The notes beneath the pieces are model-generated. The model did no database searches. It had not been told where the DNA came from and saw nothing but the letters and a program-made list of their open reading frames with translations. The position numbers and the translations under genes were made by a program. Shown here piece by piece: positions 3,232 to 30,833 of a stretch of DNA of 64,000 nucleotides. The DNA lies in NCBI RefSeq assembly GCF_012275445.1, contig NZ_JAAZQK010000008.1, positions 124,001 to 188,000 on the forward strand. Direction: 5' to 3'. The stretch's first letter is position 1; each line of letters starts with the position of its first letter. Source of the DNA: Rhizobacter sp. SG703 (lineage in GTDB: Bacteria; Pseudomonadota; Gammaproteobacteria; Burkholderiales; Burkholderiaceae_C).

Positions 3232-4107
3232 CTACGTCCACTGGCCGAGCAACACCCCGGCGAACACGGCGAAGCCCAGCCAGTGGTTCAGCCGGAAGGC
3301 ACGGAAGCAGCCGTCGCGGGTGCGCGTGCGGATCAGCGTCCAGTGCCAGCCGGCGATGCCGGCGGCCACCGCCAGGCCCGCGAAGAACGGCCAGCGCAGC
3401 CCTTGCTGCGCACCGAGCACGCCCCAGCTCGCGATGAACAGGCCGTAGCAGGCCATCACGCCGGCCACGTCGAAGCGGCCGAGCGTGATCGCCGAGGTCT
3501 TGATGCCGATCTTCAAATCGTCGTCGCGGTCGACCATCGCGTACTCGGTGTCGTAGGCGATCACCCAGCACAGGTTGCCCAGCAGCAGCCCCCAGGCGAG
3601 CGCCGGCACTTCGCCGCGCACGGCTGCGAACGCCATCGGGATGCCAAAGCTGAACGCGACGCCGAGCACCGCCTGCGGCATCGAGAAGAAGCGCTTGGTG
3701 AACGGGTAGACGATGCTGACGGCCAGCGCCGCGACGCTCCACGCGATGGTCGCGGCATTGGTCGTCAGCACCAGCCCGAAGGCGGCCAGCGCGAGCACCG
3801 CGCCGAGCAGCAGCGCCTCTTTCACGCTGACCGCGCCGCTGGTGACCGGGCGCTGCTCGGTGCGCTTCACGTGCCTGTCGAAATCTCGGTCGGCGACGTC
3901 GTTGACGGCGCAGCCGGCGCTGCGCATCAGGAAGGTGCCGAGCGTGAAGACGATCAGCAGGTGCCAGCCGGGGAAGCCGCCGGCCGCCATCCACAGTGCC
4001 GACAGCGTCGGCCACAGCAGCAGGTAGCTGCCGGCCGGGCGGTCCCAGCGGATCAGGTTCAGGTACAGCGACAGGCGCGACGGCGTCGGCGCGGTGGGTG
4101 CGGTCAT
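3232..4107 (-). CDS. ubiA: 4-hydroxybenzoate polyprenyltransferase
   Basis: 291 residues, an integral membrane UbiA-superfamily prenyltransferase that attaches the polyprenyl tail to 4-hydroxybenzoate in ubiquinone synthesis. Both Asp-rich motifs are present: NDVADRDFD (about residues 69-77) and [12 protein letters not shown] (about 186-197). The rest is a series of hydrophobic helices. The start is taken at 4107 because this ATG overlaps the TGA of the upstream reverse-transcriptase gene as ATGA, a classic translational-coupling junction. An in-frame start at 4131 would add 8 residues inside the RT gene. Being downstream of an RT is unusual. Confidence 0.95.
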
Positions 4108-23574: not shown

Positions 23575-24168
23575 ATGAGCCGCCCACCCCTCAGCCGCTA
23601 TCCGGTGCCCGACATCGCCGGCCTGCCCGACGACATTCGCTCGCGCATCCTCGAGGTGCAGCAGAAGGCCGGCTTCGTGCCGAACGTGTTCCTCGGCTTC
23701 GCGCACCGGCCCGACGAGGCGAGGGCCTTCTTCGCGTACCACGACGCGCTGCTGCTGAAGGAAGGCGGGCACCTGACGAAGGGCGAGCGCGAGATGATCA
23801 TCGTCGCGACCTCGGGGGCGAACAACTGCCTGTACTGCGTGGTCGCGCACGGCGCGATCCTGCGGGTCTACGAGAAGCAGCCACAGGTCGCCGACCAGGT
23901 CGCTGTCAATTACCTGAAGGCCGACATCACGCCGCGGCAGAAGGCGATGCTCGGCTTCGCGATGAAGGTCTGCAACGACGCGGCGAACATCGTCGACGCG
24001 GACTTCGAGGCGCTGCACGCGCACGGCTTCGACGACGAGGACATCTGGGACATCGGCGCGATCACCGCGTTGTTCGGCTTGAGCAACCGGATGGCGAACC
24101 TGATGAGCCTGCGGCCGAATGATGAGTTCTACCTGATGGGAAGGGTGCCGCGGGAGAAGAAGGCGTAA
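23575..24168 (+). CDS. Peroxidase-related AhpD/carboxymuconolactone decarboxylase-like protein
   Basis: 197 residues, all-alpha AhpD-like fold with the CxxC-x6-H motif NNCLYCVVAHGAILR, the thiol pair used by alkylhydroperoxidases. The length and N-terminal phrase match the group annotated as uncharacterised peroxidase-related enzymes. The ATG at 23575 follows AGGAG at about 23563. It is divergent from yciH. G+C drops sharply right after its stop. Confidence 0.88.
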   Translation: MSRPPLSRYPVPDIAGLPDDIRSRILEVQQKAGFVPNVFLGFAHRPDEARAFFAYHDALLLKEGGHLTKGEREMIIVATSGANNCLYCVVAHGAILRVYEKQPQVADQVAVNYLKADITPRQKAMLGFAMKVCNDAANIVDADFEALHAHGFDDEDIWDIGAITALFGLSNRMANLMSLRPNDEFYLMGRVPREKKA

Positions 24169-24440
24169 GCAGCGCCGGCGTAGCAGGTGGTCATCACACA
24201 ACGCGCGGCACGCGCGATGTCCTACCACGAATATCTTCATCGCCAGAGTTGAATCCACATATTCGGCTCATACCGCCATCTGGTTTATAGATATCCTCAA
24301 GAAAGAGGAGTCCACATGGCATGTCGACTCGGCCTATCCTCTTGAATAGACTCGCTCATCTGCGAGCCAACTGAAATATCGTTGGCTACTGATGACGAAA
24401 ATCGAGCGTCGGTTCTCGATATTTTTCAAACGAGGAAATC
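24169..24440 (+). promoter_or_regulatory. AT-richer leader region of the microcin-like locus, with hairpin and unused ribosome-binding site
   Basis: A non-coding stretch of visibly lower G+C than its surroundings. ATCGAG-N8-CTCGAT (24401-24420) forms a 6-bp stem followed by ATTTTTC, ending 12 bases before the ribosome-binding site of the precursor gene. A strong GAGGAG (24305-24310) sits before ATG 24316 (9 codons) and ATG 24321 (17 codons), so a short leader peptide could be made. A second small dyad, CTCGC-N6-GCGAG, lies near 24350. The promoter is probably here, but no convincing -35/-10 pair was found. Confidence 0.4.
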
Positions 24441-24629
24441 ATGGAAGAATTGTCATTGGCTGAAATTGATGAAGTGAGTGGTGCGCTCGGTCTCCGAGAT
24501 GTTGTGGTAATCATCAAAGCTGCATACCAGACGGTTAAAGGAGGCCTGAACGGAGCCCAAAATGTCATGCAATTCACTGGCCAAGACATGTTTCTTGACG
24601 CCTTGAACGGCGGAAACCTGGGCGCCTAA
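24441..24629 (+). CDS. Microcin/bacteriocin precursor peptide with double-glycine-type leader
   Basis: 62 residues. The first 15, MEELSLAEIDEVSGA, match the double-glycine leader of class II microcins exported by C39 transporters: hydrophobic residues at the L-x-x-x-I-x-x-V spacing and a GA cleavage pair (14-15). The microcin V leader is the same length. The predicted 47-residue product is Cys-free, starts with a hydrophobic/amphipathic stretch (LGLRDVVVIIKAAYQTV) and ends Gly/Asn-rich (LNGGNLGA). GAGGA sits four bases before the ATG. CPBP, HlyD and C39 ABC genes follow on the same strand, so function as an exported bacteriocin is a strong inference. The activity spectrum is unknown. Confidence 0.82.
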   Translation: MEELSLAEIDEVSGALGLRDVVVIIKAAYQTVKGGLNGAQNVMQFTGQDMFLDALNGGNLGA

Positions 24630-24638
24630 TTCTCTACA

Positions 24639-24667
24639 GTCCGGCCGCTGCCCGTAGGTGGCCGGAC
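24639..24667 (+). terminator. GC-rich stem-loop after the precursor gene (attenuator or mRNA-end hairpin)
   Basis: GTCCGGCC and GGCCGGAC form a perfect 8-bp stem around a 13-base loop, starting 10 bases after the precursor stop and ending about 10 bases before the ribosome-binding site of the CPBP gene. No T-tract follows, so it is probably a partial terminator or an RNA-stabilising hairpin giving more precursor than downstream message. That role is inferred. Confidence 0.5.
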
Positions 24668-24688
24668 AAACAATCACGGGGGACACAA

Positions 24689-25168
24689 GTGTCGACTTTT
24701 CCGAAAGCACTCCTGGGCTGGACAAGAGAGAATCCGTGGTTATTTTCACTGTTGGCAGCCATCGCCGCCATTCTGCCCCCGTTCGTCCTGCTGGCATTAC
24801 TGAGAAATAGCATACCCTCAGCAGAAACAGAGCCCTACAACCCGATCATTGATGGCATTGCGGCTTTGATCATCGCGCCACTCTTCGAATCAGCCATATT
24901 GGTTCCAATGATGGTGATAGCAGAGAGAATAATCCAAGGCAGAGTTGGTCCTTCCCTTCTATGTGCTTCGGTATGGGCGGCATTGCATGGAATGATAGTT
25001 CCGCTCCAGGCAGTTGTGGCGTTCTGGGCATTTCTGATATTCAGTCTCACGCTTCTTCACTGGCGCGAAAGATTGCCGCACTCATACTACTGGGTCCTGG
25101 TTTTGACTCATTTCTTTGCCAACCTGCCTTCAACGATTGTTCTTGCATTCGATATTGCCCAATCCTGA
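24689..25168 (+). CDS. CPBP/Abi-type intramembrane protease-like protein, candidate immunity protein
   Basis: 159 residues from a GTG at 24689 with GGGGGA five bases upstream. Four hydrophobic segments lie at about 17-39, 52-76, 88-122 and 132-153. CPBP landmarks are recognisable: APLFES (E67), WAALHG (H100) and HFFAN (H141, N145). The usual EE pair of motif 1 is reduced to one Glu, so catalysis may be weakened or lost. CPBP proteins are common in bacteriocin loci, where some provide self-immunity and others help process peptides. The position between precursor and exporter fits either role. Base composition is low in G+C like the precursor. Confidence 0.72.
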   Translation: MSTFPKALLGWTRENPWLFSLLAAIAAILPPFVLLALLRNSIPSAETEPYNPIIDGIAALIIAPLFESAILVPMMVIAERIIQGRVGPSLLCASVWAALHGMIVPLQAVVAFWAFLIFSLTLLHWRERLPHSYYWVLVLTHFFANLPSTIVLAFDIAQS

Positions 25169-25201
25169 GGGCATGGACTGACAATTGGAAAAGAGGTATT
25201 G

Positions 25202-25315
25202 ATGTACTTAATTGAAGCTATCTTAGCTTGGGCCACCATGGGCGTCGTGGCCCTGCCGGTTGTTTTTTGTGCGCGAAGACATTTCCGCTGGCTCGCAAAC
25301 GAAGAACTGATGTAG
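25202..25315 (+). CDS. 37-residue single-span membrane peptide in the microcin-like locus
   Basis: A short frame with a good ribosome-binding site (AGAGG, five bases before the ATG), starting 33 bases after the CPBP stop. It encodes a hydrophobic segment (LIEAILAWATMGVVALPVV), then a basic patch (ARRHFR) and an acidic end (NEELM). This layout is that of a small inner-membrane protein, such as the tiny immunity proteins of class II microcins. No leader or GG motif is present, so it is not a second precursor. Function inferred from location only. Confidence 0.55.
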   Translation: MYLIEAILAWATMGVVALPVVFCARRHFRWLANEELM

Positions 25316-25484
25316 CGACGCATCGAAGGGTCATCGTCATCTTGATGGCGATTGCAATTGAACACGGGGCGAAGCTAGGTTGATCTCGTGATGATTTGAA
25401 TCTGCGTGTCCACATGAAGAATCATCGCAAGCGGTCAGCCCTTTTTCCAACAGCACAGCCATCACCGCACCTCGAGCCTTCCCC
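25316..25484 (+). other. Spacer before the HlyD gene, with a 24-codon frame overlapping its start
   Basis: No recognisable gene or terminator was seen. A frame at 25414-25488 (MKNHRKRSALFP...) ends in a TGA that overlaps the HlyD ATG as ATGA. Neither start has a good ribosome-binding site, so the small frame may be accidental or may help re-initiation at the HlyD gene. G+C rises back to the chromosomal level across this spacer. Confidence 0.3.
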
Positions 25485-26750
25485 ATGACGCTCCCGCTGT
25501 TCAGAGAGCAAGCCTTGCAGCACGCCGCCGCCCGCGGCTTCGGCGACATCCTGCTCACCCGACCACCCTCGTTCGCGCTGCTGACTGGCCTCTTCACGTC
25601 GCTCGCGATCGCCATCGTCCTGTTCTTCTCGTTCTTCAGCTACACCCGCAAGGCCCAGGTGTCCGGCGTGATCCTGCCGAGCGCCGGCGTGATCCGCGTC
25701 GTGTCGTCGCAATCGGGCCTGGTTGCCGAGCGCCGCGTGGTGGACGGGCAATCCGTGAAGGCGGGCGACGTGCTCTTCGTGCTGCGCAGCGAGCACGCCA
25801 CCGCGACGCAAGGCAACGCCGAGCAAACGGTGTCCGACCTGTTGCGATCCCGTCGCGACAGCTTCGAGGCCGACGCCCTTCAGCAGTCGCGCCAGTCCAC
25901 GCAACGCAGGCAAGCGACGGAACACCGTGCACGCGACCTCGCCGACGAGATCAAGCGAGTCGATGGACAGCGGACACTTCAGGCCCGCCGCGTCGCGCTC
26001 GCCGATGAATCGGTCCGCCGCTATACCGATCTGCAGGCCGCCCACTTCATCTCCGCCGCGCAGTTGCAAGACCGCTTGGCCGAACTGCTCGACCAGCGGC
26101 AACGCCTCGGCGATCTCGAGCGTGCCGCGGCCTCGGCCGCGCGCGAGCTCGCAAGCAGCCAGGCCGAGCTTCGCGACCTCGTCGTTCAGGGCGAGCGCGA
26201 CCAGCAGGCGGCGCGCCGCAACATGGCGGCCGTCGAACAGGAGCTCATTGAGAACGAAGCGCGACGCCAGATCTGGGTGCGTGCGCCGCACGATGGCATC
26301 GTCGCCGCCATCGCAGCAGAGCCGGGACACACCGTGGCACCGAACCAGGCCTTGGCCATCGTGTTGCCGGACGACGGTCTGCTCGAAGCCGAGCTCTACG
26401 CACCTTCGCGCGCCGCCGGATTCATCCAGGCCGGCATGACCGTCATGCTGCGCTACCAGGCCTTCTCCTACCAGAAGTTCGGGCAGCACGGGGGTCGCGT
26501 GCGAGAGGTGTCCCGCATCGCGATGCGCCCTGAGGATTTACCGTTTCCCGGCGTCGTCGCGTCCGCGGGCTCGACGTCGGAGCCGCTCTATCGCATCCGC
26601 GTCAGCCTCGACCGGCAAGACATCCAGGCCTATGGAATCGCACAGCCGCTCAAATCGGGCATGGTGCTGGAGGCGAGCGTGCTGCTCGAACAGCGCCGGC
26701 TCCATGAGTGGATCCTCGAGCCGCTGTACAGCATCACGGGCCGAGCCTGA
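25485..26750 (+). CDS. HlyD-family adaptor of a microcin-type (CvaA/MchE-like) secretion system
   Basis: 421 residues. The N-terminal phrase PLFREQAL, a single membrane helix (about 34-54) and FSYTRKAQVSGVILP are typical of CvaA/MchE adaptors for peptide exporters. A long coiled coil (about 105-255) precedes the second lipoyl half (IWVRAPHDGIVAAIAAEPGHTV) and a C-terminal barrel ending in EWILEPLYSITGR, also a microcin-adaptor signature. It should link the C39 ABC exporter to a TolC-like channel encoded elsewhere. The ABC gene follows after 12 bases. Codon use is GC-rich, unlike the precursor. Confidence 0.92.
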   Translation: MTLPLFREQALQHAAARGFGDILLTRPPSFALLTGLFTSLAIAIVLFFSFFSYTRKAQVSGVILPSAGVIRVVSSQSGLVAERRVVDGQSVKAGDVLFVLRSEHATATQGNAEQTVSDLLRSRRDSFEADALQQSRQSTQRRQATEHRARDLADEIKRVDGQRTLQARRVALADESVRRYTDLQAAHFISAAQLQDRLAELLDQRQRLGDLERAAASAARELASSQAELRDLVVQGERDQQAARRNMAAVEQELIENEARRQIWVRAPHDGIVAAIAAEPGHTVAPNQALAIVLPDDGLLEAELYAPSRAAGFIQAGMTVMLRYQAFSYQKFGQHGGRVREVSRIAMRPEDLPFPGVVASAGSTSEPLYRIRVSLDRQDIQAYGIAQPLKSGMVLEASVLLEQRRLHEWILEPLYSITGRA

Positions 26751-26762
26751 AGTACCTGACGT

Positions 26763-28901
26763 ATGGAGTTCCGCCGGCCAGACTTCGCCTTCTGGCGCAC
26801 GCAGCGCCTGCCCGTGATCCTGCAGACCGAGGCGGCCGAATGCGGTCTCGCCTGCCTCGCGATGGTGGCCTGCTTCCACGGTCATCGGATCGATCTGCCG
26901 CACATGCGCAGGCGCTTCCCGGTATCGCTGAAAGGCGCCACGCTGAAGAGCCTCATCACGATCGCGCGCGGCCTGCAATTGCACACACGCCCGCTGAAGC
27001 TGGCGTTGGAGCGCATCGGGGACTTGAAGCTGCCCTGCGTCCTGCACTGGGACATGAACCACTTCGTGGTGCTGAAGGCCGCGACGGCAGGTCATGCGAC
27101 CCTGCACGACCCGGCGGTCGGCGAGCGGCGCCTGTCGCTGGAGCAACTGGGCAGGCACTTCACCGGCGTCGCACTGGAAGCCTCGCCCGATGCGCAGTTC
27201 ACGAAGAAGGAAGAGCGCCAGCAGATCAGCCTGCGCTCGTTGATGGGCCGGGTGAGCGGCCTGCGGGCCGGGCTGCTGCAGTTGCTGCTGCTCGGCTCGG
27301 CGCTGCAGGTCTGCGCGCTCACCGCGCCGTTCTACCTGCAATGGGTCATCGACGAGGCCGTGGTGTCGGCTGACCGCGACCTGGTGACCGTTCTCGGCAT
27401 CGGCTTCCTGTTGCTGGCGCTGGTGCAGGGCTCGCTGTCGGGCGTGCGCTCCTGGGTCACCACCGTGCTCGCGACGAACCTCAACTTCCAATGGCTCGGC
27501 CATGCATTCGGGCACCTGATGAAGCTGCCACTGGCTTGGTTCGAGAAGCGGCACCTGGGCGACATCGTCTCGCGCTTCGGTTCGATCCAGGCGATCCAGC
27601 GCAGCTTGACCACCCAGTTCGTCGAAGGTGTCATCGACGGCGTGCTGGTGCTGGGCACGCTGGTCGTGATGTGCCTCTACAGCCTGCGCCTCACGCTGGT
27701 GGCCGGCGCGGCCGTGCTGCTCTATGCGTTGCTGCGCTGGGCGCTCTTGCGCTCGATGCGCGAAGCCACCGCAGAGCAGATCATCCATGCCGCCCGGCAG
27801 CAAAGCCACTTCATCGAATCGACGCGCGGCGTGCAGAGCCTGCGCCTGTTCAATCGTGTCGAGGTGCGCCGAATCGGCTACATGAACGCGCTGGCCGACC
27901 AGTTCAATGCCGACCTGCGGATCGCGCGGCTGAGCGTCTCGTACCAGACGGCCAACACGCTGCTGTTCGGCGCCGAGCGCGTGATCGTCGTCTGGCTGGC
28001 GGCGCTGGCGGTGCTGGACACGCGCTTCTCGGTCGGAATGCTGTTCGCCTTCATCAGCTACAAGGATCAATTCACGCAGCGCATGGCCGCGTTGATCGAC
28101 AAGCTCTTCGAGCTGCGCATGCTGCGCCTTCACGGCGAGCGCGTGGCCGACATCGTGCTGACGCCGCCCGAGGATGAATCGCAGGATGTCGAGGTCGACC
28201 CCAGGCACGTGCAACCGGAGATCGAGTTGAAGGGCCTGTCGTTCCGCCATGCCGACGGCGAGCCGTGGGTACTCGAAGACGTGTCGCTGAAGATCCCCGC
28301 CGGGCAGTGCCTCGCGATCACCGGGCCCTCGGGCTGCGGCAAGACGACGCTCGTCAAGCTGATGCTGGGCCTGCTCGAGCCGACGGCCGGCGACGTGCTG
28401 GTCGGCGGCGTCAAGCTGAAGCAGTTGGGGCTGCGCAACTTGCGCGAGATGGTGGCCACCGTGATGCAGGACGACCAGCTCTTCGCCGGATCGATTGCCG
28501 ACAACATCAGCCTCTTCGACCCGTCACCGGCCCCCGAGCGGGTCGAGGCCTGCGCCCGGCTTGCATCGATCCACGACGAGGTCAGCGCGATGCCGATGCG
28601 CTTTCACACGCTCGTCGGCGACAGCGGCTGTGGCCTGTCGGGCGGACAGGAGCAGCGCCTGCTGCTGGCGCGGGCGCTCTACAAGAACCCGAAGATCCTG
28701 GTGCTGGACGAGGCGACCAGCCACCTCGATGTGTGGAACGAGCGGCAGGTCAATGCATCGATCAGGCAGCTCGCGCTGACGCGCATCATCGTGGCCCACC
28801 GCCCGGAAACCATCGCGATGGCCGAGCGCGTGGTCGTGTTGCAGCGTGGACGCATCGCGCAAGACCTCGACCCGCCGGCGCTGCTGCGCGGCGTGCTCTG
28901 A
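26763..28901 (+). CDS. C39-peptidase ABC exporter for double-glycine peptides (CvaB/RaxB-like)
   Basis: 712 residues in the standard three-domain order. The C39 peptidase domain (1-130) has Gln21 and Cys27 in QTEAAECGLACLAM, His100 in WDMNHFVVL and Asp116 in HDPAVG, so the catalytic set is intact. A six-helix membrane domain (about 160-460) and an ATPase follow, with Walker A GPSGCGKTT (521-529), signature LSGGQ (625-629) and Walker B ILVLDE (645-650). These proteins remove the leader after the GG/GA pair and export the peptide in one step. It is the only such exporter in the window, so the 24441 peptide is its natural substrate. Confidence 0.95.
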   Translation: MEFRRPDFAFWRTQRLPVILQTEAAECGLACLAMVACFHGHRIDLPHMRRRFPVSLKGATLKSLITIARGLQLHTRPLKLALERIGDLKLPCVLHWDMNHFVVLKAATAGHATLHDPAVGERRLSLEQLGRHFTGVALEASPDAQFTKKEERQQISLRSLMGRVSGLRAGLLQLLLLGSALQVCALTAPFYLQWVIDEAVVSADRDLVTVLGIGFLLLALVQGSLSGVRSWVTTVLATNLNFQWLGHAFGHLMKLPLAWFEKRHLGDIVSRFGSIQAIQRSLTTQFVEGVIDGVLVLGTLVVMCLYSLRLTLVAGAAVLLYALLRWALLRSMREATAEQIIHAARQQSHFIESTRGVQSLRLFNRVEVRRIGYMNALADQFNADLRIARLSVSYQTANTLLFGAERVIVVWLAALAVLDTRFSVGMLFAFISYKDQFTQRMAALIDKLFELRMLRLHGERVADIVLTPPEDESQDVEVDPRHVQPEIELKGLSFRHADGEPWVLEDVSLKIPAGQCLAITGPSGCGKTTLVKLMLGLLEPTAGDVLVGGVKLKQLGLRNLREMVATVMQDDQLFAGSIADNISLFDPSPAPERVEACARLASIHDEVSAMPMRFHTLVGDSGCGLSGGQEQRLLLARALYKNPKILVLDEATSHLDVWNERQVNASIRQLALTRIIVAHRPETIAMAERVVVLQRGRIAQDLDPPALLRGVL

Positions 28902-28904
28902 GGG

Positions 28905-29666
28905 CTACGGCAGCAGCAAGCCTTCAGCGACCCATTGCTGGATCGTGCCGACCACGCGTGCCGCATCGCCCGCCATCGCGCACAGCACGATGAAATCCTC
29001 GCCCCGCATCGCTGCCGCCAGCAGCTGCGCCTCCAGCGCGTTGGCCGCCGTCCGCCAGCGCGTCTCCAGCATCGGCCGCCAGACGATCAGCGGATGCTCG
29101 CCCGCCTCGGGCTCCTCCAGCTCAGGCTCATCCTCGCCCTGCAGCGCGCGCCAGGCCGGCTCCACCTGCCAGTCGAGGGTCAGCACCTGCACGCTCGGGT
29201 GAAAGCGCAACACGCGCTGCGGCCAGCCATCGGCCGGCAACGCGGCCAGTTCCTGCGGCGTCATCGGCACCGCATCGGCCGCGTCGAAGGCCTCGCGCAG
29301 CGCCCACTCCATGCGCGCCAGGTCGACGAAGGCCGGGTGCGGCACCAGCGCCGGATGCGCGGCCATGAACTCCGCCAGCCGGTGCCCGAACCAGCGGATC
29401 GACGGATGCCGCGACGGGTGGGCCTGCAGGTAGGCTTCGGCCAGCGCGTCGAAGGCCTCGTCGCCCATCGCGCGCGGCAGCACGCCGTGGTTGTCGCGCA
29501 GCGCCGCGATCAACCGGGCGCGGTAGGCGTTCTGGTAGATGCGCAGCAGCGGCTCGCGCTGCGTGGGCTCGCGCAGCAGGCCAGGGCCGGCCGGTGCACC
29601 GAGCATCGCGGCGTGCAAGGCGCGCTGCTGGTCCGCCAGCGGCGTTGCGTCGGCATCGGCCCTCAT
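28905..29666 (-). CDS. bufC: BufC/HvfC-like partner protein of an MNIO enzyme (DUF2063)
   Basis: 253 residues with an N-terminal DUF2063 domain ([31 protein letters not shown]) and a C-terminal alpha/beta part. In bufferin and methanobactin-like systems this partner binds the precursor leader and presents it to the iron enzyme. The ATG overlaps the bufB stop as ATGA, so both are made together. It converges with the C39 exporter gene with 3 bases between them. Confidence 0.88.
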
Positions 29667-30511
29667 GCGGCAACCGCTTCGTTCAGTGCTGCCGCTTCCA
29701 CGGCCCGCGCCTGGTCCAGCTCGGCCACCAGCTCCGCCAGCGGCGGGATGTGGTCGTCGCGCTCGATCATCGCCGGCACGCGGCCCAGGCGCCGCACCGT
29801 GTAGCCATAGAGATCCCACACCGCTGCGCAGACCGGGTGGTCGTGCGTGTCGATCAGGTAATCGCCATGGTCCTCGTGCCCGGCCAGGTGAATCTGACGC
29901 ACCCGCTCGCGCGGCATCGCGTCGATGAAGCGGCGTGCGTCGAAGCCATGGTTCACGCTGCTGACGTGCACGTTGTTGACGTCCAGCAGCAGCTCGCAAT
30001 CGGCCCGCTGCAGCAGCTCGGCGATGAACTCCCATTCGCTCATCTCGTCGGCCGCGAAGCTCACATAGCTCGACACGTTCTCCAGCACCAGCCGCCGGCC
30101 GAGCAGGTCCTGCACCTGGCGCACGCGCGGCACCAGGTGGCGCAGCGCCGCCTCGGTGTACGGCATCGGCATCAGGTCGTGCAGGTTGTGGTGGTCGACG
30201 CCGGTCCAGCACAGGTGGTCGGACACCCACGCCGGCTCGATGCGCTGCGCCAGCGCCTTCAGGTCGCGCAGGTAGCCGGCGTTCAGCGGGTCGGCGCTGC
30301 CGATCGACAGCGACACGCCGTGCATCGCCATCGGGTGGTCGCGGCGGATGCGGTCGAGGTGGTGCAGCGGCTTGCCGCCGGGCACCATGTAGTTCTCGGA
30401 GATCACTTCCAGCCAGTCGACGCGCCGTCGCAACGACGCATCGCCGTCGCAGAAATCGCGGTAGTGCTCGGTGCGCAGACCGAGCCCGAAGCCGTGCAGC
30501 GAAGCGTTCAT
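29663..30511 (-). CDS. bufB: BufB-like multinuclear non-haem iron oxidative enzyme (MNIO, DUF692)
   Basis: 282 residues, DUF692/MNIO TIM-barrel family. Metal-ligand stretches are visible: [61 protein letters not shown] and DTHDHPV. Family members modify cysteines of a partner peptide (to oxazolone or thiooxazole groups), creating copper-binding sites. The ATG at 30511 is preferred over an in-frame start at 30544, which would place the start inside the upstream hairpin. It is coupled to bufC by ATGA and lies 64 bases after bufA2. Confidence 0.92.
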
Positions 30512-30527
30512 GGAGGTGGCCACCGAA

Positions 30528-30567
30528 TGAAAAGAGGCCGGCACGGGAGCAGGGCCCGCCGTGCCGG
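30528..30567 (-). terminator. Stem-loop with U-tract between bufA2 and bufB (attenuator)
   Basis: On the minus strand, CCGGCACGG (30567-30559) pairs with CCGTGCCGG (30546-30538), a 9-bp GC stem, followed by CCTCTTTTC. It starts 8 bases after the bufA2 stop. This is the arrangement expected for partial termination, so that the precursor is made in excess over the modifying enzymes. Confidence 0.6.
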
Positions 30568-30575
30568 AAGCGTTT

Positions 30576-30833
30576 TTACTTCAGCACGGTGCCGCCGGCG
30601 CTGGTGCACTCCGCGGCGGTCTTCTTGCCGACCCAGCCCTGGCCCTTGCAGCCGTTCTGGCCCTTGCATTCGCTCTTCGCGGTCTTGCAGTCGGACGTGC
30701 CCTTGCAGCTGTTGACGCCGGCGCACTTGACGCTGCCTTCGTCGGCGGCTTGGACGCTGGTGGCAACGGTGCCCAGCGAGAACAGGGCGGCAGCGGTGGT
30801 GGCCAGGGCGAGGCCGGACTTCAGGTTCAGCAT
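30576..30833 (-). CDS. bufA2: BufA2-family periplasmic bufferin-type metallophore precursor
   Basis: 85 residues with a Sec signal peptide ([22 protein letters not shown], cleavage near 29/30). The mature peptide has six cysteines (37, 43, 49, 56, 62, 76) in repeating [23 protein letters not shown] phrases typical of BufA2. Unlike double-glycine peptides it goes out by Sec. After cysteine modification by BufB/BufC it is expected to chelate copper in the periplasm. AAGGA lies seven bases before the ATG. It is the first gene of bufA2-bufB-bufC; no DoxX-type bufD is adjacent. Confidence 0.88.

Follow-up and report, generated by a model that had tools for sequence, protein, structure and literature searches.

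A probable class II microcin-like bacteriocin unit with a candidate CPBP-type immunity protein and putatively replaceable cargo beside its exporter in Rhizobacter sp. SG703

Microcin V is encoded in the order cvaC-cvi-cvaA-cvaB, and its immunity protein Cvi is of another type than the CPBP-like protein considered here. Its 15-residue leader type, HlyD/CvaA adaptor and C39 exporter with Cys/His/Asp are shared by a unit of five open reading frames (ORFs) in Rhizobacter sp. SG703, whose core peptide differs in giving no match to Pfam MccV or Bacteriocin_IIc at E≤1. The unit lies in a window of 64,000 nucleotides, the whole stretch of DNA that was analysed (positions 124001-188000 of contig C8, NZ_JAAZQK010000008.1, a 376-kb contig of the 6.5 Mb genome G000). 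We read it as probably a class II microcin-like bacteriocin unit with CPBP-type immunity, in which peptide and immunity gene would be replaceable cargo beside the exporter.

In microcin S of E. coli G3/10 the gene order is mcsS-mcsI-mcsA-mcsB, and mcsI was shown to give immunity (PMC3316575). The same order of peptide, CAAX/CPBP-type protein, HlyD and ABC proteins, and a double-glycine leader, were found in the window; since this layout is that of microcin S, the unit is of a known kind. The four microcin S cluster genes include no TolC gene; likewise, of the 34 genomic places with OEP/TolC-family matches, often two to a protein, none lies inside the unit. The window unit has an extra tiny ORF and lies on a betaproteobacterial contig. 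The microcin S precursor (11.67 kDa) is glycine-rich, Cys-containing and megaplasmid-borne, whereas the present precursor has 62 residues and no Cys; the two are set apart by description. The pAWOD920 cluster of Aliivibrio wodanis, with a CAAX/Abi (PF02517) protein proposed for self-immunity, shares the leader consensus, the secretion pair and the CAAX/Abi-type neighbour (PMC4462113). It has MceIJ-like maturation genes where the window unit has none, and is likened by its genes, not its peptides. Double-glycine peptides or close analogues have been published for Aliivibrio, Caulobacter, Neisseria and Xanthomonas, those of Caulobacter or their analogues carrying RTX-like signals, and a published screen took in candidate class II microcins of Pantoea, Erwinia and Xanthomonas (PMC13174018). 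Among the matches listed from the open-licence literature, no title or abstract dealt with this locus, which is weak evidence of absence.

The original prediction had five ORFs in this order, strand and place, as confirmed by ORF positions and Pfam matches. The features are as follows.

24441-24629, + strand: precursor peptide gene, 62 amino acids (aa), ATG start, ACGAGGAAA upstream as ribosome-binding site
24639-24667, + strand: predicted RNA hairpin between peptide and CPBP genes, 11-bp stem, without a U tract after it
24689-25168, + strand: CPBP-like membrane protein gene, candidate immunity, 159 aa, GTG start
25199-25315, + strand: tiny membrane ORF, 38 aa from TTG, or 37 aa from ATG at 25202 with AAGAGG ahead
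25485-26750, + strand: HlyD/CvaA-type periplasmic adaptor gene, 421 aa, HlyD_3 E 3.1e-14 (Pfam)
26763-28901, + strand: C39 peptidase-containing ABC exporter gene, 712 aa, catalytic residues intact
24169-25484, no strand assigned: AT-rich, putative cargo island with peptide gene, CPBP-like gene and tiny ORF, 50.8% GC vs 69.8% for the window

The precursor consists of the leader MEELSLAEIDEVSGA (residues 1-15) and a core of 47 aa with a calculated average mass of 4880 Da, no Cys and a charge of about 0. The calculated mature mass is below the 10 kDa limit of class II microcins. Save at residue 2, which is E and not R/K, the leader follows the published consensus for double-glycine leaders of Gram-negatives, M(R/K)ELX3E(I/L)X2(I/V)XG(G/A) (PMC4462113). 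When both window strands were scanned with an 8-position leader motif, the peptide was the single full match, 7-of-8 matches were zero, and 40 Markov-resampled window copies gave 0 matches. The predicted pairing of a 62-aa peptide and 15-residue leader with its own exporter is supported. A chance ORF was rejected because the window holds no other full motif match and because the sister genome described below conserves the C-terminus at the protein level. A ribosomally synthesised and post-translationally modified peptide (RiPP) was rejected as well, 0/5 unit ORFs being a modification enzyme in Pfam or NCBIfam.

Peptidase_C39 (1.9e-32), ABC_membrane (2.5e-31) and ABC_tran (4.3e-32) were matched by the exporter in Pfam. 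Its relatives were taken as the best 80 of 579 loci, flanked by up to 7 kb at either end; contig ends shorten many of the loci. Gln21, Cys27, His100 and Asp116 were kept in all 80 (tblastn alignment), in agreement with the intact catalytic set proposed earlier. Structure matches that included the peptidase domain were the bacteriocin transporter 4ry2 (residues 19-701), which we take to be PCAT1, and ComA (21-701); the top-ranked solved structures were P-glycoproteins, which covered the transporter part only. An NHLP export system was rejected (best NCBIfam match NHLM_micro_ABC1, 485 bits vs a cut-off of 853). The window-type exporter was found in 2/11 genus genomes and is 89% identical in the sister. 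A second C39 exporter of the same genome (contig C7) is 57% identical to that of the window and has counterparts at 56-58% identity in 11/11 genus genomes, own genome counted. With the leader pattern used, no double-glycine ORF was seen in a stretch of 14 kb surrounding the C7 exporter.

The most AT-rich part of the 64-kb window is made up of the peptide gene, the CPBP-like gene and the tiny ORF. The GC content of the island ranked 2 among 627 same-size windows, and the eight lowest windows all overlap the island stretch. GC at third codon positions was 52-57% in peptide gene, CPBP gene and tiny ORF and 85-91% in adaptor and exporter genes. A promoter and terminator scan of 24160-25500 gave a number of sites not above expectation and within its spread.

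In the sister genome Rhizobacter sp. Root1238 (locus L003), the upstream flank aligned at 94.1% DNA identity over 1160 bp, ending in a carboxymuconolactone decarboxylase-like gene, and the downstream flank (adaptor, exporter and beyond) at 88.9% over 5452 bp. The segment that starts midway in the peptide gene and takes in most of the CPBP gene was 78.5% identical over 614 bp, and window positions ~24160-24543 and ~25158-25478 had no aligned counterpart. Opposite ~24160-24543, where the window has the 5' half of the peptide gene, the sister has ~1.5 kb of unrelated DNA instead. The swapped-in DNA (L003:3780-5025) holds three ORFs without a Pfam family: a candidate double-glycine peptide (3780-4001; leader MKDNMFEMTEADCDVAAGG), one of 225 aa and a membrane-like one of 93 aa. 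The peptide remnant comprises the last 22 codons, with 4 silent differences and 1 replacement relative to the window, and the CPBP gene behind it is intact, with a pairwise dN/dS of 0.164 (dS 0.80 vs 0.40-0.41 for exporter and adaptor) that counts in favour of the bacteriocin reading. The swapped stretch and CPBP segment have 52-53% GC vs 65-68% in neighbouring genes. A CPBP-like gene thus stays open where the peptide has lost its leader end in two places, here and at locus L110 of the SG703 genome (see below). The CPBP-type neighbour is supported as candidate immunity.

A conserved peptide beside homologous exporters, whose lack the original prediction had named as refuting, is indeed largely missing: among the 80 loci, only the sister has the 3' remnant. 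The remnant is nevertheless conserved as protein, and cargo turnover rather than gene absence best explains why no conserved peptide lies beside the relatives' exporters. One could also suppose that the window cargo is decayed or non-functional, the peptide ORF being a remnant and the exporter serving peptides elsewhere. The broken gene in the sister and the further double-glycine peptide elsewhere in the genome would agree with this, but start, leader and stop are intact, a ribosome-binding site is present and the two species share a C-terminus conserved at the protein level, so that decay was judged very improbable.

Double-glycine-leader ORFs were found in 45/80 relative loci, compared with 1-6/80 in ten resampled sets. 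At least 7 of the 62 pattern matches look spurious, among them L042:8782 and L072:12237; five near-identical spurious fragments (L029, L034, L036, L041 and L047) are presumably DnaA. Each locus with a spurious match has another match, and the locus count of 45 therefore stands. The locus titles name beta-, gamma- and alphaproteobacteria, and the statement that class II microcins are known mainly from enterobacteria was too narrow. The peptides are diverse: with the window peptide as tblastn query at E≤0.1, only its own locus, L002 and L003 were hit among 82 loci. Thirty-eight relatives are 9 kb or longer and carry a double-glycine ORF close to the exporter. In each of them, 700 bp surrounding the first double-glycine ORF were ranked by GC within the locus. 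They fell into the lowest tenth in 25/38, into the lowest quarter in 32/38 and above the median in 2/38. A cruder comparison, biased by intergenic DNA, had cargo lower in 42/44 loci; the 700-bp rank is the fairer one, and as the loci are related no P value is claimed. The low GC around these ORFs fits frequent cargo acquisition.

Some of these relatives' loci have features of their own. Near the Burkholderiales exporters of a 57-59% group (L022, L026, L030, L031, L038, L045, L046, L051, L054, L058 and L061), short ORFs with long GG-ending leaders and tiny cores, e.g. LPKGGW and APGRRW, were seen; they may encode very short peptides for export, possibly with a signal role. A Chromobacterium double-glycine peptide (L004:5432-5596, - strand) has a 34-residue core with the imperfect repeat GEISAKYLKLRAENTKS / GEIQAQYLKLVSESTK. 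Downstream of the exporter in L005 (9267-10688), two double-glycine peptides are followed by two CPBP-type genes. The first peptide barely passes Bacteriocin_IIc (27.3 vs 27.1 bits), and the arrangement suggests a two-peptide bacteriocin.

The window peptide itself was searched across 11 genus genomes, and the order was covered by a 3-row profile. As a whole the peptide was found in 1/11 genus genomes, its own; G004, presumably the sister Root1238, retains residues 35-62, and matches in G008 and G010 were at chance level only (E 0.47-0.48). The profile reached E≤0.01 in 4 of 399 genomes of the order, full-length in its own genome only. The other three matches were of partial cover (E 0.0014-0.008); one of them, L121, a glycine-rich double-glycine peptide, shows its likeness chiefly in the leader. 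Plasmids gave one weak match to the window peptide (E 0.8), phages none, and viral contigs none at E≤1e-3. Across these searches, relatives of the core were confined to Rhizobacter-like genomes.

A further double-glycine substrate of the exporter had also been named beforehand as a refuting finding. A second double-glycine peptide does exist on contig C13, but it extends the proposed reading rather than refuting it. This paralogue (MQELTEEEIELVSGSGGLRDGVV..., L002:1429-1611, - strand) overlaps the start of the gene of CPBP2, a 177-aa CPBP-like protein. A second copy of the peptide and CPBP pair was found in G010, at 78.3% and 82.5% identity and pairwise dN/dS of 0.285 and 0.148. By ORF reading, the surroundings are alike in both genomes, with ABC-transporter genes on one side and a sugar-epimerase-like gene on the other. 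Among 399 family genomes, the second peptide reached E<1e-20 only in its own genome and G010; the other 19 of 21 listed genomes were at E 0.009-0.1. Window and second peptide have a common GLRDxVV after the leader, which reads GVRDSLI in the G010 copy. The second peptide may be exported by the exporter of the window. At a third locus (contig C2, L110) the core is kept with no in-frame leader and its end out of frame; the CPBP-like ORF behind it is open, has no Pfam family and keeps E/H/HxxxN (by eye). The second and third pairs have 57.5-62.2% GC vs 67-69% for their loci, less extreme than the window island.

CPBP/Abi-type proteins carry an E, H and HxxxN motif, usually with EExxxR as first motif. 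Members of this type are said, in work by Kjos from 2010, to be immunity proteins of lactic-acid bacteriocins. An E/H/HxxxN membrane protein adjoining a bacteriocin or candidate bacteriocin gene is common to those systems and the window, whereas the window protein stays below the PF02517 cut-off and does not keep the second Glu and the Arg of EExxxR. P64, E67, H100, H141 and N145 were invariant in 10/10 aligned CPBP-like proteins; 5 of these rows (L005 twice, L018 twice, L070) had been preselected by an E...H...HxxxN/D filter, so residue conservation is partly circular for those rows. L005:9637 and L018:1796, from loci with other double-glycine peptides, pass the PF02517 cut-off. The predicted model of the window protein is all helical (pLDDT 84.3). 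Filter matches in L007 and L042 were judged not plausible and set aside. Homologues at E≤0.001, own genome counted, were found in 2/11 genus genomes and 3/399 family genomes, the third borderline. By analogy, the CPBP-like protein is a candidate immunity protein of the unit.

Several results weigh against reading the locus as a bacteriocin with CPBP-type immunity. The window protein scored 11.2 bits against PF02517, below the cut-off of 22.4, which the sister copy and CPBP2/3 do not reach either. Foldseek of its model against the PDB gave a best E of 0.71 and nothing at E≤0.001. Plausible CPBP-like ORFs were found with the E/H/HxxxN filter in only 4/80 loci (L003, L005, L018, L070), and 35/80 relative loci, the sister included, have no double-glycine ORF matching the pattern. 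The pairwise dN/dS of the sister CPBP gene averages both lineages and is therefore no proof of selection on that gene after peptide loss. No exporter adjoins the second pair. McsI reportedly has 216 aa and no predicted membrane helix, as opposed to the 159-aa membrane protein here, and the analogy between the two is therefore loose. Neither Pfam nor NCBIfam gave a family for the peptide at E≤1, MccV and Bacteriocin_IIc included, although class II microcin cores diverge strongly and need not resemble a known family. Judged by the libraries searched, the core matches no family and the predicted peptide is new; this part of the suggestion of a new bacteriocin family holds, but the kind of system, with its microcin S layout, is known.

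Two published cases belong among these points. In the Caulobacter cdz system, a CaaX protease encoded nearby could be dispensed with, and immunity came from a different small membrane protein (PMC5380434). Transferred to the window, the 37-aa tiny membrane protein would be the true immunity protein and the CPBP-like protein a peptidase for processing or maturation. A ribosome-binding site precedes the tiny ORF, which sits in the AT-rich island and matches no Pfam family at E≤1. However, no counterpart was found between the CPBP and adaptor genes of the sister, which keeps its CPBP gene. Behind CPBP2 no hydrophobic ORF of 20-80 aa was found on the same strand in either genome (best mean hydropathy 0.1), and in the second pair the peptide gene directly overlaps that of CPBP2. 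This assignment was considered improbable; the 37-aa product is a possible second immunity or accessory peptide.

The other case bears on what the peptide does. It might be a signal (pheromone) or an autolysis or self-acting factor, with the CPBP-like protein processing or sensing it. Gram-negative double-glycine peptides reportedly include proposed signals (work of Dirix from 2004), and the core is neutral rather than cationic. In Neisseria, Nap peptides have a class II microcin look, act on own cells and do not inhibit competitors (PMC11798529). Yet 0/5 unit ORFs resemble a regulator or receptor, a whole peptide in 1/11 genus genomes is a better fit to a fast-changing weapon, and in two cases an open CPBP-like gene adjoins a broken peptide. 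A signal or self-acting role was thus rated unlikely.

For the bacteriocin reading the following mechanism is proposed from the gene content. The 62-residue precursor would be recognised by the C39 domain of the exporter via its double-glycine leader and cut after Gly14-Ala15. The unmodified 47-residue core would then leave by way of the HlyD adaptor and an outer-membrane channel of TolC type, the gene for which lies elsewhere, and would act on the envelope of related bacteria, while the CPBP-like protein would shield the producer in the way of the CAAX-family McsI for microcin S. Peptide and CPBP genes would be horizontally acquired, replaceable cargo next to a more native-looking exporter, and where the peptide gene is lost the CPBP gene would remain. 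Genes, leader, catalytic residues, AT-rich island, replacement in the sister and the open sister CPBP gene were read directly from the sequence; cleavage, secretion, killing and immunity are predicted from it.

The hairpin between the peptide and CPBP genes had a z of -2.41 in the window (4/200 shuffles as good) and of -3.51 in Root1238 (0/200), where it is predicted at the corresponding position, likewise without a U run after it. By eye, one stem pair is apparently altered on both sides in the sister. The hairpin may reduce read-through or stabilise the peptide transcript.

On the opposite strand, an MbnB/TglH/ChrH-type gene (29663-30544, - strand; PF05114 E 6.1e-113) lies beside a DUF2063 gene in a cluster at 28905-30544 (-). 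Ahead of it is an 85-aa, Cys-rich ORF with a signal-peptide-like start (30576-30833, -). The whole (28905-30833) resembles what we take to be a bufferin-type RiPP cluster and, with its own precursor-like ORF and opposite strand, looks separate from the peptide unit.

A wider model is put forward tentatively and may well not hold. The exporter would be a fixed platform with an AT-rich slot for exchanged toxin-immunity cassettes; recombination joints would lie within the peptide gene, either at the leader or beyond it, toxins would be disarmed by loss of the leader end, and CPBP would be kept as an orphan shield. The genome would then have one armed unit, one exported in trans and one orphan shield.

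The unit adds a peptide family missing from the searched libraries to the Gram-negative double-glycine bacteriocins, if the predicted activity is right. Two sister genomes show replacement of the cargo while exporter and probable immunity gene stay. Root1238, in which CPBP is kept and the whole peptide lost, is a natural test of whether CPBP would protect by itself.

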